Below are positions 7,436 to 36,531 of a stretch of 45,492 bases of DNA, piece by piece. The stretch comes from a virus. The first letter of the stretch is position 1; every line of letters starts with the position of its first letter. Below the pieces are notes generated by a model. It saw nothing but the letters and a program-made list of their open reading frames with translations, did not search any database and was not told the DNA's origin. The position numbers and the translations under genes are program-made. The DNA is taken from IMG/VR virus record IMGVR_UViG_3300025093_000038, positions 1 to 45,492 of that record. One strand, written 5' to 3'.

Positions 7436-10174
7436 GTGACCAAGCCCTATGACGCGGTCGACCTTTGTGCCGGGCCCGGCGGCTGGGACGTCGCTGCCCG
7501 ACGTCTTGGCCTCCACGTGCTCGGCATTGAGCTCGACCACGCAGCCTGCGCAACCCGCGCCGCGGCCGGACACCCGACCCTGCAGGCCGACATGACCGTC
7601 GTGGACCCGAACGGGATCAACATGGCACCGATGTCCGGTCAGATCGGCTCGCCGCCGTGCCAGGGGTTCAGCCCCGCCGGGAAGGGCCAGGCGCGGGACG
7701 ACTCGATCCGTCTCCTCGAGGAGTTGGAGCCCGTGCGCACACTGCGGGACCTCGAGACCGTCATCGCGGGCTGCCACGAGTGGATGACCCACCCCGGTAC
7801 CGCTCTCGTGCTTGAGCCGCTTCGGTGGGCGATGACCACGTTCCCGTCGTGGATCGCGTGGGAGCAGGTGCCGACCGTGCAACCCATCTGGGACGCCTGC
7901 GCCGTCATCCTGCGCCGCCTCGGCTACAGCGTCGCCACCGGCCGTCTGCAGGCCGAGCAGTACGGCGTACCCCAGACCCGGAAACGGTCCATCCTCGTGG
8001 CCCGGGACCCGTACCTAGTCGCGGAACTCGGTCCAGTCGCCCTGCCCACGCCCACTCACTCGCGCTACCACAACCGCGACCCGAAGCGCCTCGACGAGGG
8101 CGCGCCCCCGTGGGTCAGCATGGCCGAGGCCCTCGGGCGGGGCGCGACCGCTCGTCCCTCGATGACCGTCACCGGCGGCGGCTCGGCGACAGGCGGGGCG
8201 GAGCCCTTCGGCAACGCCGCGCGACAGGGCCTCGCGAAGGAGCTGGAAGCCGGGCGCTGGCAGTTCGCCGGCGCGGGAGCCGCCGCGAACGAGACCGCCC
8301 GGCAGCGCCGACGCCCGGACGACGAGCCCGCGCACACCATCACCGGTGGCCGGACCGCAGTCTGGACCCCGACGCCCGCGATCGACGGAGAGACCCCCGC
8401 CGACTGCGCATGGAGCGAGGACCGGCCGGCTCCGACCATGGTTGCCTCGTTCGCGGCTGACGTCGTCGCCACACCGAAGTACCGCAAGGCCGGCGACGGG
8501 CCGCGGCAGTCGACCCCCGGCTCGATCCGCGTCACGCCCCAGGAAGCGGCCGTACTGCAGTCGTTCCCCGCCGACTACCCGTGGCAGGGCACGAAGACGA
8601 AGGTCTACCAGCAGATCGGGAACGCCATCCCGCCCCTGCTCGCCGAGGCCGTGCTCCGCGCCGTGCTCGGGATCGAATCGAGCACTGACACCACCGGTGC
8701 AGCCGACTCGGCTGTCGACTCGGCTGTCGACGCGGACGAGATCGCTGACGTGACCACCTACTACGAAGACGACACAGTGACCGTGCACGCAGGTGACTGC
8801 CTCAATCTGCTGCGCGCTGACGCCCTCGGTTACGAACACGCTCTCGGGTACCACCCCCTGCGCCTGTTCCCCGACGCGTCGGTTGACGCGATCGTCACTG
8901 ACCCGCCGTACGGCCTGGGGTTCATGGGCAAGGAGTGGGACGCGCTCCCGCCCGGCCGGGAGTGGGCGGCCGAGTGCCTTCGCGTCCTGAAGCCGGGGGG
9001 CCACCTGGTGGCGTTCGGCGGGTCCCGCACCTGGCATCGTCTCGCGGTCGCGATCGAGGACGGGGGCTTCGAGATCCGTGACTCCCTGGCCTGGCTCTAC
9101 GGGTCCGGCTTCCCCAAGTCCCTCGACGTGGCCAAGGCCATCGACAGTGCAGGCGGCGCCTCGCCGGCCAGCCAGGCGGCGGTACTTCGGACTGCCCGTG
9201 AACGAGCCAGCATGACCCGGGAGCAGATCGCGGAGGCCGTGGGTTGCACCCCGTCGTCGGTCCGAGACTGGGAAGAAGGCCGCTCGCGCGCAGTCGGTCG
9301 ACCGGTCGAGCACATCATTCCGTCGTCGCGCTACCGGTCTGCCCTCGCTGACCTGCTGGGCTACACCGCAGACGAGCGGTCGGTCACCGGAGTTGCGGTA
9401 GACCGCCGCGGAGACGGGACCGTGGTCGGGCTCGGCCACTCAGGCAAGGTCTATGGCGACCCCTCCACGCCAGAGGCTGGCCGGTGGGCCGGGTGGGGCA
9501 CCGCGCTCAAGCCCGGCTTCGAACCCATCGTCATTGGCAGGAAGCCCCTGGCTGGCACGGTCGCCGCCAACGTCCTGATGCATGGGACGGGTGCCATCAA
9601 CGTGGACGCCTGCCGCATCGAAGCCACCGACGATCAGCTGGCCGAGAAGTACGCCAGCGTCCAGAACGCTGGCGTTCGGTCGAACACCGTCTACGGCCGC
9701 GACAACCGCAGCCGCAGCGGTGCTGCACCTCACGACGCTGGGCGTTGGCCAGCCAACGTCGTGCTCGACGAGGCGCTGTCCGACGAGCTCGACCGCGTCA
9801 CCCGTCACATCGACGGCGCATCCCGGTTCTTCTACGTCGCCAAGGCCGACAACGACGAACGCGTCACTGTCGACGGCGTCGCGCACCCCACCGTCAAGCC
9901 GCTTGACCTGATGCGCTGGCTTGTCCGGCTGGTGACCCCGCCCGGCGGCACCGTGCTCGAGCCGTTCGCCGGGTCGGGCACCACGGTCGAGGCGTGCCTC
10001 TTGGAGGGCTTCGACTGCGTCGCGGTCGAGCGTGACGAGTCCTATCTGCCGCTGATCCGTCAGCGCATCGACCGGCACCGCAACCCGATCCGTGCCGTGA
10101 AGACCGCAGCACTCCCTGGCGAGGACCTCGGCATCTTCGCCCTCTTCGACACCCCGAACGGAGCTCCCGCATGA
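7436..10174 (+). CDS. fused C5-cytosine and amino DNA methyltransferase with HTH insert
   Basis: A 912-aa bifunctional enzyme. Residues 1 to about 412 are a C5-cytosine methyltransferase: motif I DLCAGPGG (9-16), PPCQGF with catalytic C75 (73-78), EQV in place of the usual ENV (143-145), QTRKR (180-184) and motif X YQQIGNAIPP (391-400). Residues about 440-885 are an amino-methyltransferase: DPPYG (489-493) and EPFAGSGTT (842-850), with HPTVKPLDLMRWL (817-829). Between them, residues about 586-640 form an XRE-type helix-turn-helix (MTREQIAEAVGCTPSSVRDW). GTG 7436 is chosen for its AGGAGGA site. Two chemistries in one chain would give the phage two protective marks. Confidence 0.92.
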   Translation: MTKPYDAVDLCAGPGGWDVAARRLGLHVLGIELDHAACATRAAAGHPTLQADMTVVDPNGINMAPMSGQIGSPPCQGFSPAGKGQARDDSIRLLEELEPVRTLRDLETVIAGCHEWMTHPGTALVLEPLRWAMTTFPSWIAWEQVPTVQPIWDACAVILRRLGYSVATGRLQAEQYGVPQTRKRSILVARDPYLVAELGPVALPTPTHSRYHNRDPKRLDEGAPPWVSMAEALGRGATARPSMTVTGGGSATGGAEPFGNAARQGLAKELEAGRWQFAGAGAAANETARQRRRPDDEPAHTITGGRTAVWTPTPAIDGETPADCAWSEDRPAPTMVASFAADVVATPKYRKAGDGPRQSTPGSIRVTPQEAAVLQSFPADYPWQGTKTKVYQQIGNAIPPLLAEAVLRAVLGIESSTDTTGAADSAVDSAVDADEIADVTTYYEDDTVTVHAGDCLNLLRADALGYEHALGYHPLRLFPDASVDAIVTDPPYGLGFMGKEWDALPPGREWAAECLRVLKPGGHLVAFGGSRTWHRLAVAIEDGGFEIRDSLAWLYGSGFPKSLDVAKAIDSAGGASPASQAAVLRTARERASMTREQIAEAVGCTPSSVRDWEEGRSRAVGRPVEHIIPSSRYRSALADLLGYTADERSVTGVAVDRRGDGTVVGLGHSGKVYGDPSTPEAGRWAGWGTALKPGFEPIVIGRKPLAGTVAANVLMHGTGAINVDACRIEATDDQLAEKYASVQNAGVRSNTVYGRDNRSRSGAAPHDAGRWPANVVLDEALSDELDRVTRHIDGASRFFYVAKADNDERVTVDGVAHPTVKPLDLMRWLVRLVTPPGGTVLEPFAGSGTTVEACLLEGFDCVAVERDESYLPLIRQRIDRHRNPIRAVKTAALPGEDLGIFALFDTPNGAPA

Positions 10175-10383: not shown

Positions 10384-11264
10384 GCCCGGAAGACCCGCGC
10401 CACGGCTCGAACGCCGGGGTCATGGCGCACCGCAACGCCGACGTACCGCTGTGCGAGCTCTGCAAGGCGGCGCAGCGGCGGACCCGGAAGGTCTACCGAC
10501 TCCGGGAACTCACCCAGGGACCGGCACGCGTACGGCTCGGCGAGGAAGCAGCGCGGAAGGTCGAGTTGATCCCCGTCAACCACCTCGCCGCTGTCTCGGG
10601 CGTCCACGCCTCCAAGATCACCCACTACCGCCGCTACGGCCCCGACACGCTCGTCTACCCCGCCACCCGTGACGCGATCCTGAACGCGCAGCCCGCCTAC
10701 ACGGTCGTGGGTCTGCAGCGGCGCCTGCGGGCGCTGTCCCGGATCGGGTGGACCATGCCGGCGGTCGCGAAGGCGACGGGTGTCGACGTGGACGCGTTGA
10801 AGAAGCTCCGCAACGCCCCCGACGGGTCACGGGTCTGCGTCCGCCAGGCCGTCGCCGACGGGATCGTCGCTGCCTACGACTCCATGTCGATGACCCCCGC
10901 ACCGGCGGGCAACACGGCCACGACAGCGGTGAGACGTGCCGCCGCCGAGGGGTGGGTGTCGCCCCTCGCCTGGGACGACATTGACGACGCCGACGAACGC
11001 CCCGACGGTGCGTCCTGCGCCACCCCGGGCTGCACCCGCACACGCAGCGGCGGCGGCCGTCTGTGCCGCTCCCACCAGGAGGGCCGCGACGCGACCCGCA
11101 CGTGGGCGATGGCGGAGCTGGTCAGCGAGTGGGAGCACCTCCGTTCCTGCGGCGTCTCGGAGGCCACTGCGCTCGTCCAGCTGGACACGACCCTCGAGGC
11201 CGTCCAGCGCGCCTACAGCCGTGCCGCCACCTCATCGACAGACCAGGAGAGGACTGCTTCCTGA
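10380..11264 (+). CDS. HTH DNA-binding protein, 294 aa
   Basis: GTG 10380. The N-terminus CELCKAAQRRTRKVYRLREL matches the CxxCR/K-rich opening of actinophage DNA-binding proteins. About 60-85 (VNHLAAVSGVHASKITHYRR) and 120-145 (MPAVAKATGVDVDALKKLRN) are two helix-turn-helix-like segments. WVSPLAWDDIDD (about 192-203) is a phrase shared with actinophage 'helix-turn-helix DNA binding domain' proteins. A C-terminal zinc-like patch (CATPGCTRTRSGGGRLCRSH) follows. It directly precedes the replication initiator and may regulate early transcription or replication. Confidence 0.8.
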   Translation: MSPEDPRHGSNAGVMAHRNADVPLCELCKAAQRRTRKVYRLRELTQGPARVRLGEEAARKVELIPVNHLAAVSGVHASKITHYRRYGPDTLVYPATRDAILNAQPAYTVVGLQRRLRALSRIGWTMPAVAKATGVDVDALKKLRNAPDGSRVCVRQAVADGIVAAYDSMSMTPAPAGNTATTAVRRAAAEGWVSPLAWDDIDDADERPDGASCATPGCTRTRSGGGRLCRSHQEGRDATRTWAMAELVSEWEHLRSCGVSEATALVQLDTTLEAVQRAYSRAATSSTDQERTAS

Positions 11265-12124
11265 TGGCCCGCATCCGCACCATCAAGCCCGAGTTCTGGA
11301 CCGACGGGGACGTCATGGACCTCTCCCCGTTCGCTCGGCTGCTGTTCATCGGGTCCTGGAACTTCGCCATGTGCGACTTCGGGCACGTCGCCGACGACCC
11401 GCGCCGACTGAAGATGCAGGTGCTGCCGGGCGACGACGTCGACCCGGTCGCGCTTGTGGATGAACTGCTCGCGTCGGGCCGTATGCGTCGCTTGGCTGTG
11501 GATAACCGGACGTTCTTGCACATCGTGCGGTTCACCGATCACCAGAAGACGGAGAAGCGGTGGTCGCCGCGCTGCGTTGCGTGTCAGGCGCAGGCGACGA
11601 GCGAATCCGCAGGTCAGGGAGGGGATGAGCCCCCAGATGAGGGGCTCCCGCCACCCCCTGACGACCACGACGGACCACCCGGAACCTCCCCCAACCTCTC
11701 CGAAACTCCCCGAACCTCTGCCCCGGAAGGGAAAGGAGGGGAAAGGAAAGGAAGGGAAGGGATAGAAACTGCTGCAGCAGCCGCGCGTGAGCTCCCACCA
11801 GCCGTCGACATCCTCCGCGCCCAGCTCGACGCCAGGAAGCTCATCGTCCGCTGGGACAAGCTCACCGACGCCGACCTGACCGAGATCGTCGACTTCGTCG
11901 AGATCCACGGCGACGGGCCACTCATCAAGGCCGCCCTCGCCGGCTACCAGCCGAACAACCCGCCCGTGTTCGCGCAGGCGTGGCTCGGCACCTGGCGGGC
12001 CCTGCCCGTCCCCGGCACTGGCCTCGGCCTCGTGCCCGACCTGCCGTGCGGCCAGCCCGGCCACTCCGGCACCACCCGCCACTGCACCCAGTGCGCCTCC
12101 GAAGCGAAGGCGGTGTCGTCGTGA
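11264..12124 (+). CDS. replication initiator / replisome organiser
   Basis: 286 aa. The N-terminus (ARIRTIKPEFWTDGDVMDLS and FARLLFIGSWNFAM) is the winged-helix domain found at the start of many phage initiator (DnaD/O-like) proteins. Residues about 105-180 are a low-complexity linker rich in P, G, E and K. A C-terminal helical domain follows (VDILRAQLDARKLIVRWDKL; FAQAWLGTW), ending in a CxxC. The linker-coding DNA holds iterons and a purine tract (next entry), the lambda gene O arrangement. It probably recruits the host helicase, since no helicase is visible here. Confidence 0.8.
   Translation: MARIRTIKPEFWTDGDVMDLSPFARLLFIGSWNFAMCDFGHVADDPRRLKMQVLPGDDVDPVALVDELLASGRMRRLAVDNRTFLHIVRFTDHQKTEKRWSPRCVACQAQATSESAGQGGDEPPDEGLPPPPDDHDGPPGTSPNLSETPRTSAPEGKGGERKGREGIETAAAAARELPPAVDILRAQLDARKLIVRWDKLTDADLTEIVDFVEIHGDGPLIKAALAGYQPNNPPVFAQAWLGTWRALPVPGTGLGLVPDLPCGQPGHSGTTRHCTQCASEAKAVSS
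11627..11780 (+). other. candidate replication origin inside the initiator gene
   Basis: In order: an inverted repeat GAGCCCC (11627-11633) / GGGGCTC (11641-11647); four direct repeats with consensus CGAACCTCYC starting at 11681, 11691, 11701 and 11711, spaced exactly 10 bp; an unbroken 38-base purine run on the top strand (11725-11762, GGAAGGGAAAGGAGG...); and a 12-bp palindrome CTGCTGCAGCAG (11769-11780). Ten is not a multiple of three, so the repeats are read in different frames and are a DNA-level signal. This matches iterons plus an unwinding tract, as in the lambda origin within gene O. Confidence 0.65.
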
Positions 12125-12360
12125 AGGCGATCCCCATCAACGTCCGTGCCGTCATCGTCGGCGGCCCCCACTGCGGCACCCGGTTCGTCGTGGTCGCCGA
12201 CCACCAGCCGAACACCGGCGACCTGCTCGGCACCCCGCCGCGGCGGGTGTCGATGCACCACTCGGGCGCCGACGTCCTCTACGACCTCGACGAGTCGGGC
12301 CAGTCGTCGGACGGCCGCACCGTCTACCGCTACCCGACACCGAAGGAGGCGACCCCGTGA
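12121..12360 (+). CDS. small hypothetical protein, 79 aa
   Basis: GTG 12121 overlaps the initiator stop and ends in a GTGA junction with the HNH gene. All-beta composition (INVRAVIVGGPHCGTRFVVV; then DGRTVYRYPTP). A family of similar short actinophage proteins exists, function unknown. Confidence 0.65.
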   Translation: MKAIPINVRAVIVGGPHCGTRFVVVADHQPNTGDLLGTPPRRVSMHHSGADVLYDLDESGQSSDGRTVYRYPTPKEATP

Positions 12361-12854
12361 AACGCACCCCGCTGGCCCGGAAGGCGCAGATGGCCCGGCG
12401 CCCGTTCACCGCGAAGCCGCCCACGAAGGCCGCCACGGCCCCCAGGCCGCCACGGAAGCCCCCGAGGGACACCGGACCCTCCCGGGAGGTCCGTGCGCTC
12501 GTCCTGGACCGTGCGGACGGCTGCTGCGAGGTGTGCGGGCTGCTGCTGTACGCGGACGGACGATGGTTGGGGCCGTACTCGGTGCACCACCGGCGTCCGC
12601 GCGGCGCCGGCGGCGACAAGAGGCCCGACACGAACAGCCCAGCGAACCTGCTCCTCGTCTGCGGCTCCGCCACCACGCCGGGCGGCTGCCACCTCCTCAT
12701 CGAGTCGAACCGCGCCCACGCCCTGAACCTCGGCTGGCTGGTCCTCCGCAACGGCGACCAGAACCCGGCCGAGACCCCGCTGCAGCTGCACGCCTACCCG
12801 GGCGACTGGTCGCTGCTGCGTCACGACGGCACGGTCGCGGAGTGGGTGCTGTGA
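12357..12854 (+). CDS. HNH endonuclease
   Basis: 165 aa. A basic, proline-rich N-terminus (1-45) is followed by an HNH fold: DRADGCCEVCG supplies the first cysteines, SVHHRRPRGAGG the catalytic HH, NSPANLLLVCG the central N, and GGCHLLIESNRAHAL the last C/H pair. GTG 12357. It lies beside the replication genes; it could be a homing nuclease or a phage nuclease for replication or host-DNA degradation. Confidence 0.88.
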   Translation: MKRTPLARKAQMARRPFTAKPPTKAATAPRPPRKPPRDTGPSREVRALVLDRADGCCEVCGLLLYADGRWLGPYSVHHRRPRGAGGDKRPDTNSPANLLLVCGSATTPGGCHLLIESNRAHALNLGWLVLRNGDQNPAETPLQLHAYPGDWSLLRHDGTVAEWVL

Positions 12855-34936: not shown

Positions 34937-36531
34937 GCTACCTCGGTGTGCACATCCACGACGGCGCCGGCCACCGCACCGTCACCCGCGTCTGCACCGG
35001 CCTCGAGTTCACGCGGATCGCGCCCGGCGGCTACTCCTACGCCCGGATGCGGCTCAACCTGCCCCGCAACGCGTTCGACGACCTCGGGCCGGCCGACCGG
35101 GTGTGGATCACCGACCCCCGCACCGGCGACACCGTGTGGGAGGGGTTCGCGGAGAACCCCGGCCCGGTCGACGGCGCCGCCGGCCAGGAGTGGGACCTCA
35201 CCGCGGTCGGGTCGATGGTCGTGGCCGACGACCTCGCGAAGCCGGTCGTGTACATCGACACCGACCTGAACGCGTGGGAGCCCGACAACCGGTCCTCGAT
35301 CCCGGCGTTCGCGACCATGCAGGTCACCGGGTACCCGCGCGGCGAAGCCCGCGACGGCCTGCTGCTGGGGTTCCAGACGGGGCAGAACGTGCTCCTCAGC
35401 AACAACGCGTCGATGGCCTACGCGAGGCTCTCCGACGCCGGGCAGGGGTTGGCGGCCATCGCCGTGACCGGCCGGTCGGGGAAGAACGACTCCGGCTACC
35501 GCGTCCAGCTGCACACGCGCTCCGGCACCATCGACGACTCCCGGGTGTTGTTCTCCGACATCGGGATGGTCGACGAGTGGAACGACGCCATCCGCGTCAT
35601 CGGCACCTCGTCGGGTCCGCCCGCCGGCGTGCACCGGGTCGCGCTCCGCCTCATCCGCACAACGGGGTCGGGGAACGTCGCCGACGACAACACGTGGACG
35701 TTCCTCACCCGCATCTCCGTGGTCGGGCGACGCATGGACAAGTACGGGGAGCTCGACACGGGCCCCGACGACATCGTGTCCGCCACCCACGTCGAAGCGC
35801 ACTGGGTGGTCGCCGACGTCGTCGCCCGGTTCCTGCCCATGGTCGACCCGGCCCGCTCCGAGATCGCCGCGCCGACGTCGCCGTACCCGATCGACCAGCT
35901 CGTGTGGACCGAAGGGGTGCGGGCGTCGGGGATCTTCGACGCCCTCGAGCAGTGGCAGCCCGAGATGTTGTGGGAGATCCTCGACTCCCGGCCCGCCCGC
36001 GGGTTCCGCTCGAACTACCGGCCGTGGCCGACCGACGTCCGCTACGTCCTCTCCGCGCAGAAGGACTCGTTCCGGTCTCCGGGCGCCGAGGTCGACCTCT
36101 GCAACCGGGTCCTCGTCGAGTGGACCGACGCCCGCGGGAACCGGCAGACCCTCACCGTCACCAGCACCGTCCCCGAGCTCGACGCCGTCGGCCGTGTCCA
36201 CGACGCCCAGCCCGTCACCCTCCCCGTCGGTCGCGGATCCGCTGCCCTCGCGCAGCGGGCCGGGGAACTCGTCCTCGCCCAGAAGGCGAAGGCCCCCGCG
36301 GCGGGCCGGGCGGTCGTCAGCCGCCGCATCTTGGACCGCAAGACCGGCAGCAGCGTCATGCCGTGGGAGATCGAACCCGGCTACCCGGCTCTCGTGCGGG
36401 AGAGGAACCTCGTGCTGCCTATCACCGAGAACCGGTACGACGACGAGGCCGGCGCCGCCCAGCTCGAGCTCGGCCGGCCGGTGCTCACTGAGACGCAGCT
36501 TCTCGCCCAGCTGATGCGGAAGACCCGGTGA
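34933..36531 (+). CDS. tail hub / minor tail protein, 532 aa
   Basis: GTG 34933. Begins with a beta domain (GVHIHDGAGHRTVTRVCTGL; YSYARMRLNLPRNAFDDLGP) typical of Tal/gp27-like tail hubs. A jelly-roll-like central part (about 130-275, with NDSGYRVQLHTRSGTIDDSR) follows, then a hub-like C-terminal half (FDALEQWQPEMLWEILDSRP; LVLAQKAKAPAAGRAVVSRR). Probably forms the baseplate hub through which the tape measure passes. Confidence 0.8.
   Translation: MSYLGVHIHDGAGHRTVTRVCTGLEFTRIAPGGYSYARMRLNLPRNAFDDLGPADRVWITDPRTGDTVWEGFAENPGPVDGAAGQEWDLTAVGSMVVADDLAKPVVYIDTDLNAWEPDNRSSIPAFATMQVTGYPRGEARDGLLLGFQTGQNVLLSNNASMAYARLSDAGQGLAAIAVTGRSGKNDSGYRVQLHTRSGTIDDSRVLFSDIGMVDEWNDAIRVIGTSSGPPAGVHRVALRLIRTTGSGNVADDNTWTFLTRISVVGRRMDKYGELDTGPDDIVSATHVEAHWVVADVVARFLPMVDPARSEIAAPTSPYPIDQLVWTEGVRASGIFDALEQWQPEMLWEILDSRPARGFRSNYRPWPTDVRYVLSAQKDSFRSPGAEVDLCNRVLVEWTDARGNRQTLTVTSTVPELDAVGRVHDAQPVTLPVGRGSAALAQRAGELVLAQKAKAPAAGRAVVSRRILDRKTGSSVMPWEIEPGYPALVRERNLVLPITENRYDDEAGAAQLELGRPVLTETQLLAQLMRKTR

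Follow-up and report, generated by a model that had tools for sequence, protein, structure and literature searches.

The window analysed here, 45,492 bp in length, corresponds to the IMG/VR record IMGVR_UViG_3300025093_000038, and its G+C content is mostly 68-73% per kb. The genes include those for terminase, portal, major head and tape-measure proteins, and a DNA polymerase III beta clamp (DnaN-like, with all three Pfam domains) is encoded at 5692-6924, upstream of a replication initiator gene (Table 1). Of the window ORFs that were scanned, none was recognised as coding for a helicase or loader; in several relatives a gene for one adjoins the initiator gene. Neither a sigma-70 promoter nor a terminator was found in 10900-12400. 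Elsewhere in the window, one ORF of 956 aa (7304-10174) has a C5-cytosine methyltransferase domain fused to an HTH and to an N4/N6 methyltransferase domain, an unusual composite DNA modification enzyme, and another methyltransferase-like ORF lies at 565-1518. ARAGORN predicted a tRNA-Arg (tcg) on the + strand at 35904-35998, within the structural gene region, which may be a false positive because it overlaps a long ORF.

Table 1. Features of the initiator gene and the proposed origin (window coordinates)
Feature	Position	Strand	Basis
Replication initiator gene, 286 aa	11264..12124	+	PHROG matches; annotated relatives
N-terminal winged-helix domain, residues 1-118	11264..11617	+	AlphaFold2; fold match; conservation
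DnaA-box-like site TCATCCACA, one mismatch	11455..11463	-	weak
Exact DnaA-box consensus TTATCCACA, possible accessory site	11497..11505	-	sequence match
Linker-coding DNA, residues 119-178, proposed origin	11618..11797	+	low-confidence linker in AlphaFold2 model
Four 10-bp iterons, consensus CGAACCTCYC	11681..11720	+	repeats in sequence; in-phase half-sites in relatives
GGARR array (seven units + GGA), proposed unwinding / single-strand-binding element	11725..11762	+	codon statistics, period, stability
C-terminal helical domain, residues 179-286	11798..12121	+	AlphaFold2, confidence moderate to low

The initiator matches three profiles annotated 'replication initiation protein' (phrog_16167, E=2.4e-26; phrog_1408, E=1.8e-21; phrog_2149, E=6.1e-16), in each case through the N-terminal domain only, which belongs to these families by profile match. 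For the protein, no Pfam family at E<=0.01, no NCBIfam match and no solved homologue by sequence was found. The closest named relatives of the gene, in the Arthrobacter phages Hum25 and Pitbull, carry the annotation 'RepA-like replication initiator', and a DnaB-like helicase comes after them. AlphaFold2 models the N-terminal domain with pLDDT mostly >90 and an H-H-H-E-E wing, and this is the only part of the initiator conserved across the family. Its best PDB fold match is 4pt7 'initiator' (RepA_N; prob 0.98, with an E of 7e-3 that is of weak significance), other winged-helix proteins are close behind, and 4ro3 is also among the matches. The N-terminal domain is the probable iteron-binding domain, and the C-terminal domain probably recruits the helicase or its loader. 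Between them, residues 120-178 form a low-confidence linker in the model, of low complexity and predicted to be disordered, and the linker-coding DNA was placed at about 11618-11797 from these domain limits. The initial annotation had located the repeats in a gap between two initiator domains, which agrees with this linker.

The four 10-bp repeats of the linker-coding DNA, GGAACCTCCC at 11681, CCAACCTCTC at 11691, CGAAACTCCC at 11701 and CGAACCTCTG at 11711, are present at the starts first reported. Their lag-10 identity is 21/30 against 13.4 expected (P=2e-4) when the encoded protein is held fixed and codons are drawn from the window's own usage. Close by lies a purine run of 38 nt, occupying exactly 11725-11762 as had been noticed, and the 45,492-bp window contains no other purine or pyrimidine run of >=18 nt. 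This run encodes EGKGGERKGREG; with the protein fixed and the window codon usage applied, in which purine-only codons account for 4.4% of the Arg codons and 31% of the Gly codons, its probability is P=5e-6, and none of 5000 recodings gave a run longer than 28 nt. The run is also an array of strict period 5, reading GGAAG GGAAA GGAGG GGAAA GGAAA GGAAG GGAAG GGA. By these probabilities, protein constraint explains neither the repeat phasing nor the purine run.

The tract is 55% G+C, and by nearest-neighbour energies no other 40-bp stretch of the window is as unstable as that at 11731. The duplex is weak there since GC and CG steps do not occur in an all-purine strand. Such a strand also contains no T, and TAA, TAG and TGA all begin with T; therefore it holds no stop codon in any frame. 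In relatives the tract ranks, at the median, in the top 10% of its locus for low stability, and in the top 5% in 18 of 33 G+C-rich loci. A family-wide rule that the tract is the least stable duplex was rejected on this moderate effect, and ease of melting may for the same reason not be its main role.

To compare the iterons, 18 genes were used, namely that of the window and its closest relatives. Ahead of the purine array, these genes carry half-sites of the AACTC/ACTC type at spacings of 10, 20, 30 or 40 bp, and both the half-sites (75 vs 32 +/- 4 under synonymous shuffling) and the in-phase pairs of them (89 vs 10 +/- 4) are in excess. The half-sites are spread over the three codon frames as 26/21/28, and some relatives carry inverted AACTC/GAGTT half-sites. 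Across relatives the linker protein is not conserved and the DNA motifs are. The C-terminal domain is exchanged among the 18 close relatives, falling into six unrelated clusters against one N-terminal cluster, with the iterons kept throughout; the DNA motifs thus travel with the N-terminal domain and not with the linker protein or the C-terminal domain. The proposed check on relatives therefore came out in favour of the DNA: the linker protein varies and the C-terminal domain is swapped, and phased repeats and purine array are kept in all three codon phases. The six C-terminal clusters behind one N-terminal cluster could also mean that the linker DNA serves chiefly as a recombination junction for swapping C-terminal domains. 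This would leave unexplained the 10-bp phased iterons and the array in unswapped genes, and a junction based on microhomology has no need of a 5-nt register, so that we regard it as extremely improbable.

The array was followed in relatives collected as 80 viral and 80 genomic loci, plus named phages. Purine runs of >=14 nt occur in 91 of the 123 initiators left after removal of redundancy, and runs of >=20 nt in 64; the runs start 342-702 nt into the gene. In the 67 runs of >=20 nt, the recurrence of GGA at 5 nt scores 0.82 vs 0.49 +/- 0.02 under purine-only synonymous recoding; GGA is fixed at this spacing while the next two purines vary, and in-register GGA uses the codon phases equally (105/107/119). 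A within-gene synonymous shuffle gave significance at 0.01 in only 42/123 genes, a conservative figure since it is the tract that provides the purine codons, and this test was superseded by whole-window codon usage and the register test. Initiators without a pure purine run mostly carry arrays of GGAAT (period 5), GGAACAG (period 7) or GGAACAGG (period 8), and in some of them CTGATTC arrays (period 7) lie on the opposite strand. The GGA-based non-purine arrays often follow 10-11 bp repeats. Because genes lacking the purine run have such arrays, the constant element is a tandem GGA-based repeat and not purine content alone. A clear GGARR array is absent from Mx8 and a few others. The same module is present in phage-like plasmids.

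These comparisons bear on a protein-level explanation, in which a charged flexible linker (GKGRERKG) would be selected and the DNA repeats would be a by-product of low-complexity codons and of slippage during replication. As this explanation would expect, disorder is predicted for the low-complexity linker, and GKGRE-type linkers recur in other initiator families. However, the very rare purine-only Arg codons (4.4%, P=5e-6), the GGA fixed every 5 nt in all codon phases with the following two purines varying, the non-purine GGAAT and GGAACAG arrays at the same place and the iterons in three frames all speak against it. The protein-level explanation is strongly disfavoured, and its probability is in our judgement very low.

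Other features were seen in the linkers of relatives. A perfect 7-9 bp hairpin stands close 3' of the purine array in some genes (L021, L026, L030, L031, L033, L038, and also L041, L088, L110, L112 and L140), and hairpins after the array are enriched family-wide (18/89 genes at P<=0.05), though not in the window; the hairpin is possibly a third origin element, for priming or loading. An extra in-frame domain lies in the linker upstream of the iterons or array in L002, L005, L190, L207, L240 and L249. By eye the insert is HNH-like in L190, L207, L240, L249 and L002, and in phage Mx8 (L005) it resembles in appearance a GIY-YIG/T5orf172-type domain. The pattern looks like invasion of the linker by homing-type nucleases that leave the origin intact.

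A protein-independent scan for exact (GGARR)5 across IMG/VR gave 119 stretches among the matches listed. The initiator N-terminal domain lies upstream on the purine strand in 86/119 of these and on the other strand in 0; in the control scans, the same domain was found at 6/119 (period 6) and 12/87 (period 4). The 103 non-redundant ORFs of the listed matches include 74 with a match to phrog_1408, 8 to Lin1244_N, 6 to DnaT and 2 to DUF1376. Of the listed stretches other than the 86, 13 belong to further families with an initiator, primosome or replication-protein annotation. At least 99 of the 119 matches listed (83%) are thus located in replication initiator genes; convergence is not claimed, because some of these families may be distant homologues. 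The HNH Pfam was present in 5/103 of the non-redundant ORFs among the matches listed. The initial annotation had presented the origin as one of an actinobacterial phage, and the type occurs elsewhere as well. In the control loci L290-L408, period-6 purine arrays (GGARRR) were also seen in a number of genes for initiators and DnaD-like loaders (phrog_9474, 14 members; phrog_270, 8; DnaD-like, 5); these arrays are perhaps another type or just Glu/Lys-rich linkers.

The strand bias of the scan is open to a reading at the RNA level, by which tandem GGA or Shine-Dalgarno-like mRNA motifs would pause ribosomes between the two domains, give rise to an internal product or serve as the target of a translational regulator. 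An array on the coding (sense) strand (86 vs 0 among the matches listed) that contains AGGAGG-like words would suit this reading, but no in-frame ATG, GTG or TTG occurs within about 60 nt after the array in the window, some members have the array on the opposite strand (CTGATTC), and the phased iterons just upstream are left unexplained. We consider it quite improbable.

For R-loops the non-template strand is expected to be the G-rich one, as it is here, and the origin may be real with the purine tract working through a transcription-formed R-loop, a G-quadruplex or a triplex, and not through binding of single-stranded DNA by the initiator. The sense-strand bias among the (GGARR)5 matches listed and the need of the lambda origin for transcriptional activation (PMC5043065) are consistent with this alternative. 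Nevertheless, arrays with a T or C in each unit (GGAAT, GGAACAG) and G2-only arrays are tolerated, and the strict 5-nt register suggests that the sequence is read, over mere purine content. The alternative is unlikely in our view, and still one to be taken seriously.

Several candidate parts were set aside. The initial annotation had included a 12-bp palindrome and a flanking inverted repeat. Both exist and neither stands out: the palindrome CTGCTGCAGCAG (11769-11780) has a best stem of 5 bp (P=0.74 vs synonymous shuffles), and the inverted repeat (11613-11624/11651-11662; 83% over 12 nt) is one of 25 similar pairs in 700 bp, and as chance-level features they were rejected as origin parts. DnaA boxes were rejected as a conserved part, being near the initiator gene in only 10/157 loci; the two DnaA-box-like sites may help the origin in the window phage. 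GC skew, which had been suggested as a way to map the origin, is negative nearly throughout the window, with no switch at 11.7 kb.

Taken together, the linker-coding DNA of the initiator gene is very probably the replication origin of this phage. In the proposed mechanism, the winged-helix N-terminal domain would bind the four phased iterons at 11681-11720, and its assembly on one face of the helix would strain the adjacent GGARR array at 11725-11762. The array would then melt, with its repeats captured as a single strand, after which the C-terminal domain could bring in the host replisome together with the helicase or loader. With its all-purine coding strand, such a tract offers a G+C-rich phage a weak duplex through which translation can proceed.

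The RepA_N plasmid replicons are the best functional parallel, closer than lambda in layout. As described for pSK41, a winged-helix N-terminal domain of about 120 residues binds the origin repeats (PMC5703833, PMC7145576), four Rep boxes lie centrally in rep, in the DNA coding for a linker of residues 121-199 (PMC5703833), and the C-terminal domain is host-specific (PMC5703833, PMC7145576). As in the RepA_N plasmids (pSK41, pTZ2162; PF06970) and PLE RepA, the window has origin repeats in central linker-coding DNA, and the C-terminal domain of its family is likewise exchangeable (one N-terminal cluster, six C-terminal clusters). In contrast, the window initiator has no PF06970 match, and its iterons, direct repeats of 10 bp, precede a GGARR array that the descriptions consulted for these replicons do not mention. 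The initiator may therefore work like that of a RepA_N replicon and is not filed as one, because the Pfam test fails.

The label 'lambda-like' fits the layout and not the parts. The lambda ori in gene O likewise places an origin inside the initiator gene, with iterons beside a low-stability tract. Its iterons, however, are inverted repeats of about 19 bp beside a 40-bp A+T-rich region (PMC5043065); the window has neither, having 10-bp direct repeats and a 55% G+C GGARR array, and its protein matches no O-like phrog. The oriL of SPP1 has repeats within gene 38, encoding the replisome organizer (PMC6316719), and resembles the window in layout, with direct repeats bound by the gene product and an unwinding element that is A+T-rich, unlike GGARR. 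In the DnaA-trio of bacterial oriC, a short tandem motif is read as a single strand by the initiator (PMC10797057). The likeness, a short tandem motif beside double-strand binding sites, is a functional parallel only, since the trio consists of 3-nt G/AAT units with an AAA+ reader, whereas the window has GGARR units of 5 nt and an initiator in which no AAA+ domain was recognised. For the mycobacteriophages Miko, Rachaly and Jeeves, which are likewise actinophage replicons, the origin was suspected to lie immediately upstream of repA or inside it, and no repeats were identified in the regions examined in that study (PMC7157519).

The proposed origin is thus an iteron origin embedded in the initiator gene, with an apparently undescribed GGARR array that the initiators of many phages have in common. 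In the literature searched, no origin element of the GGARR, purine, GGAAG or pentanucleotide kind was found to be described; the novelty of GGARR is unproven because subscription papers fall largely outside that literature. That tandem GGARR, with its GGAAT and GGAACAG(G) relatives, is a previously undescribed, distinct and sequence-read class of origin element, found in several initiator families and bacterial phyla, is a tentative proposal that we hold with somewhat more doubt than confidence. On the same tentative footing, the array might be a translatable, stop-free unwinding element, in a 5-nt register on one strand, that is read by the initiator or by a shared host protein. It could then, with equal reserve, be analogous to the A+T-rich DUE and the DnaA-trio and distinct from both.

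A located origin is missing for most phage genomes. If the proposal is true, phased iterons followed by GGARR would be a DNA signature for both the origin and the initiator gene, serving many temperate phages, prophages and phage-plasmids of Actinomycetota, Pseudomonadota and other phyla. The clade-specific part (the iterons, tied to the N-terminal domain) would be separable from the shared part (GGARR), and therefore a conserved partner of the latter can be sought. Origin melting could also be probed by synonymous mutation within G+C-rich coding DNA.
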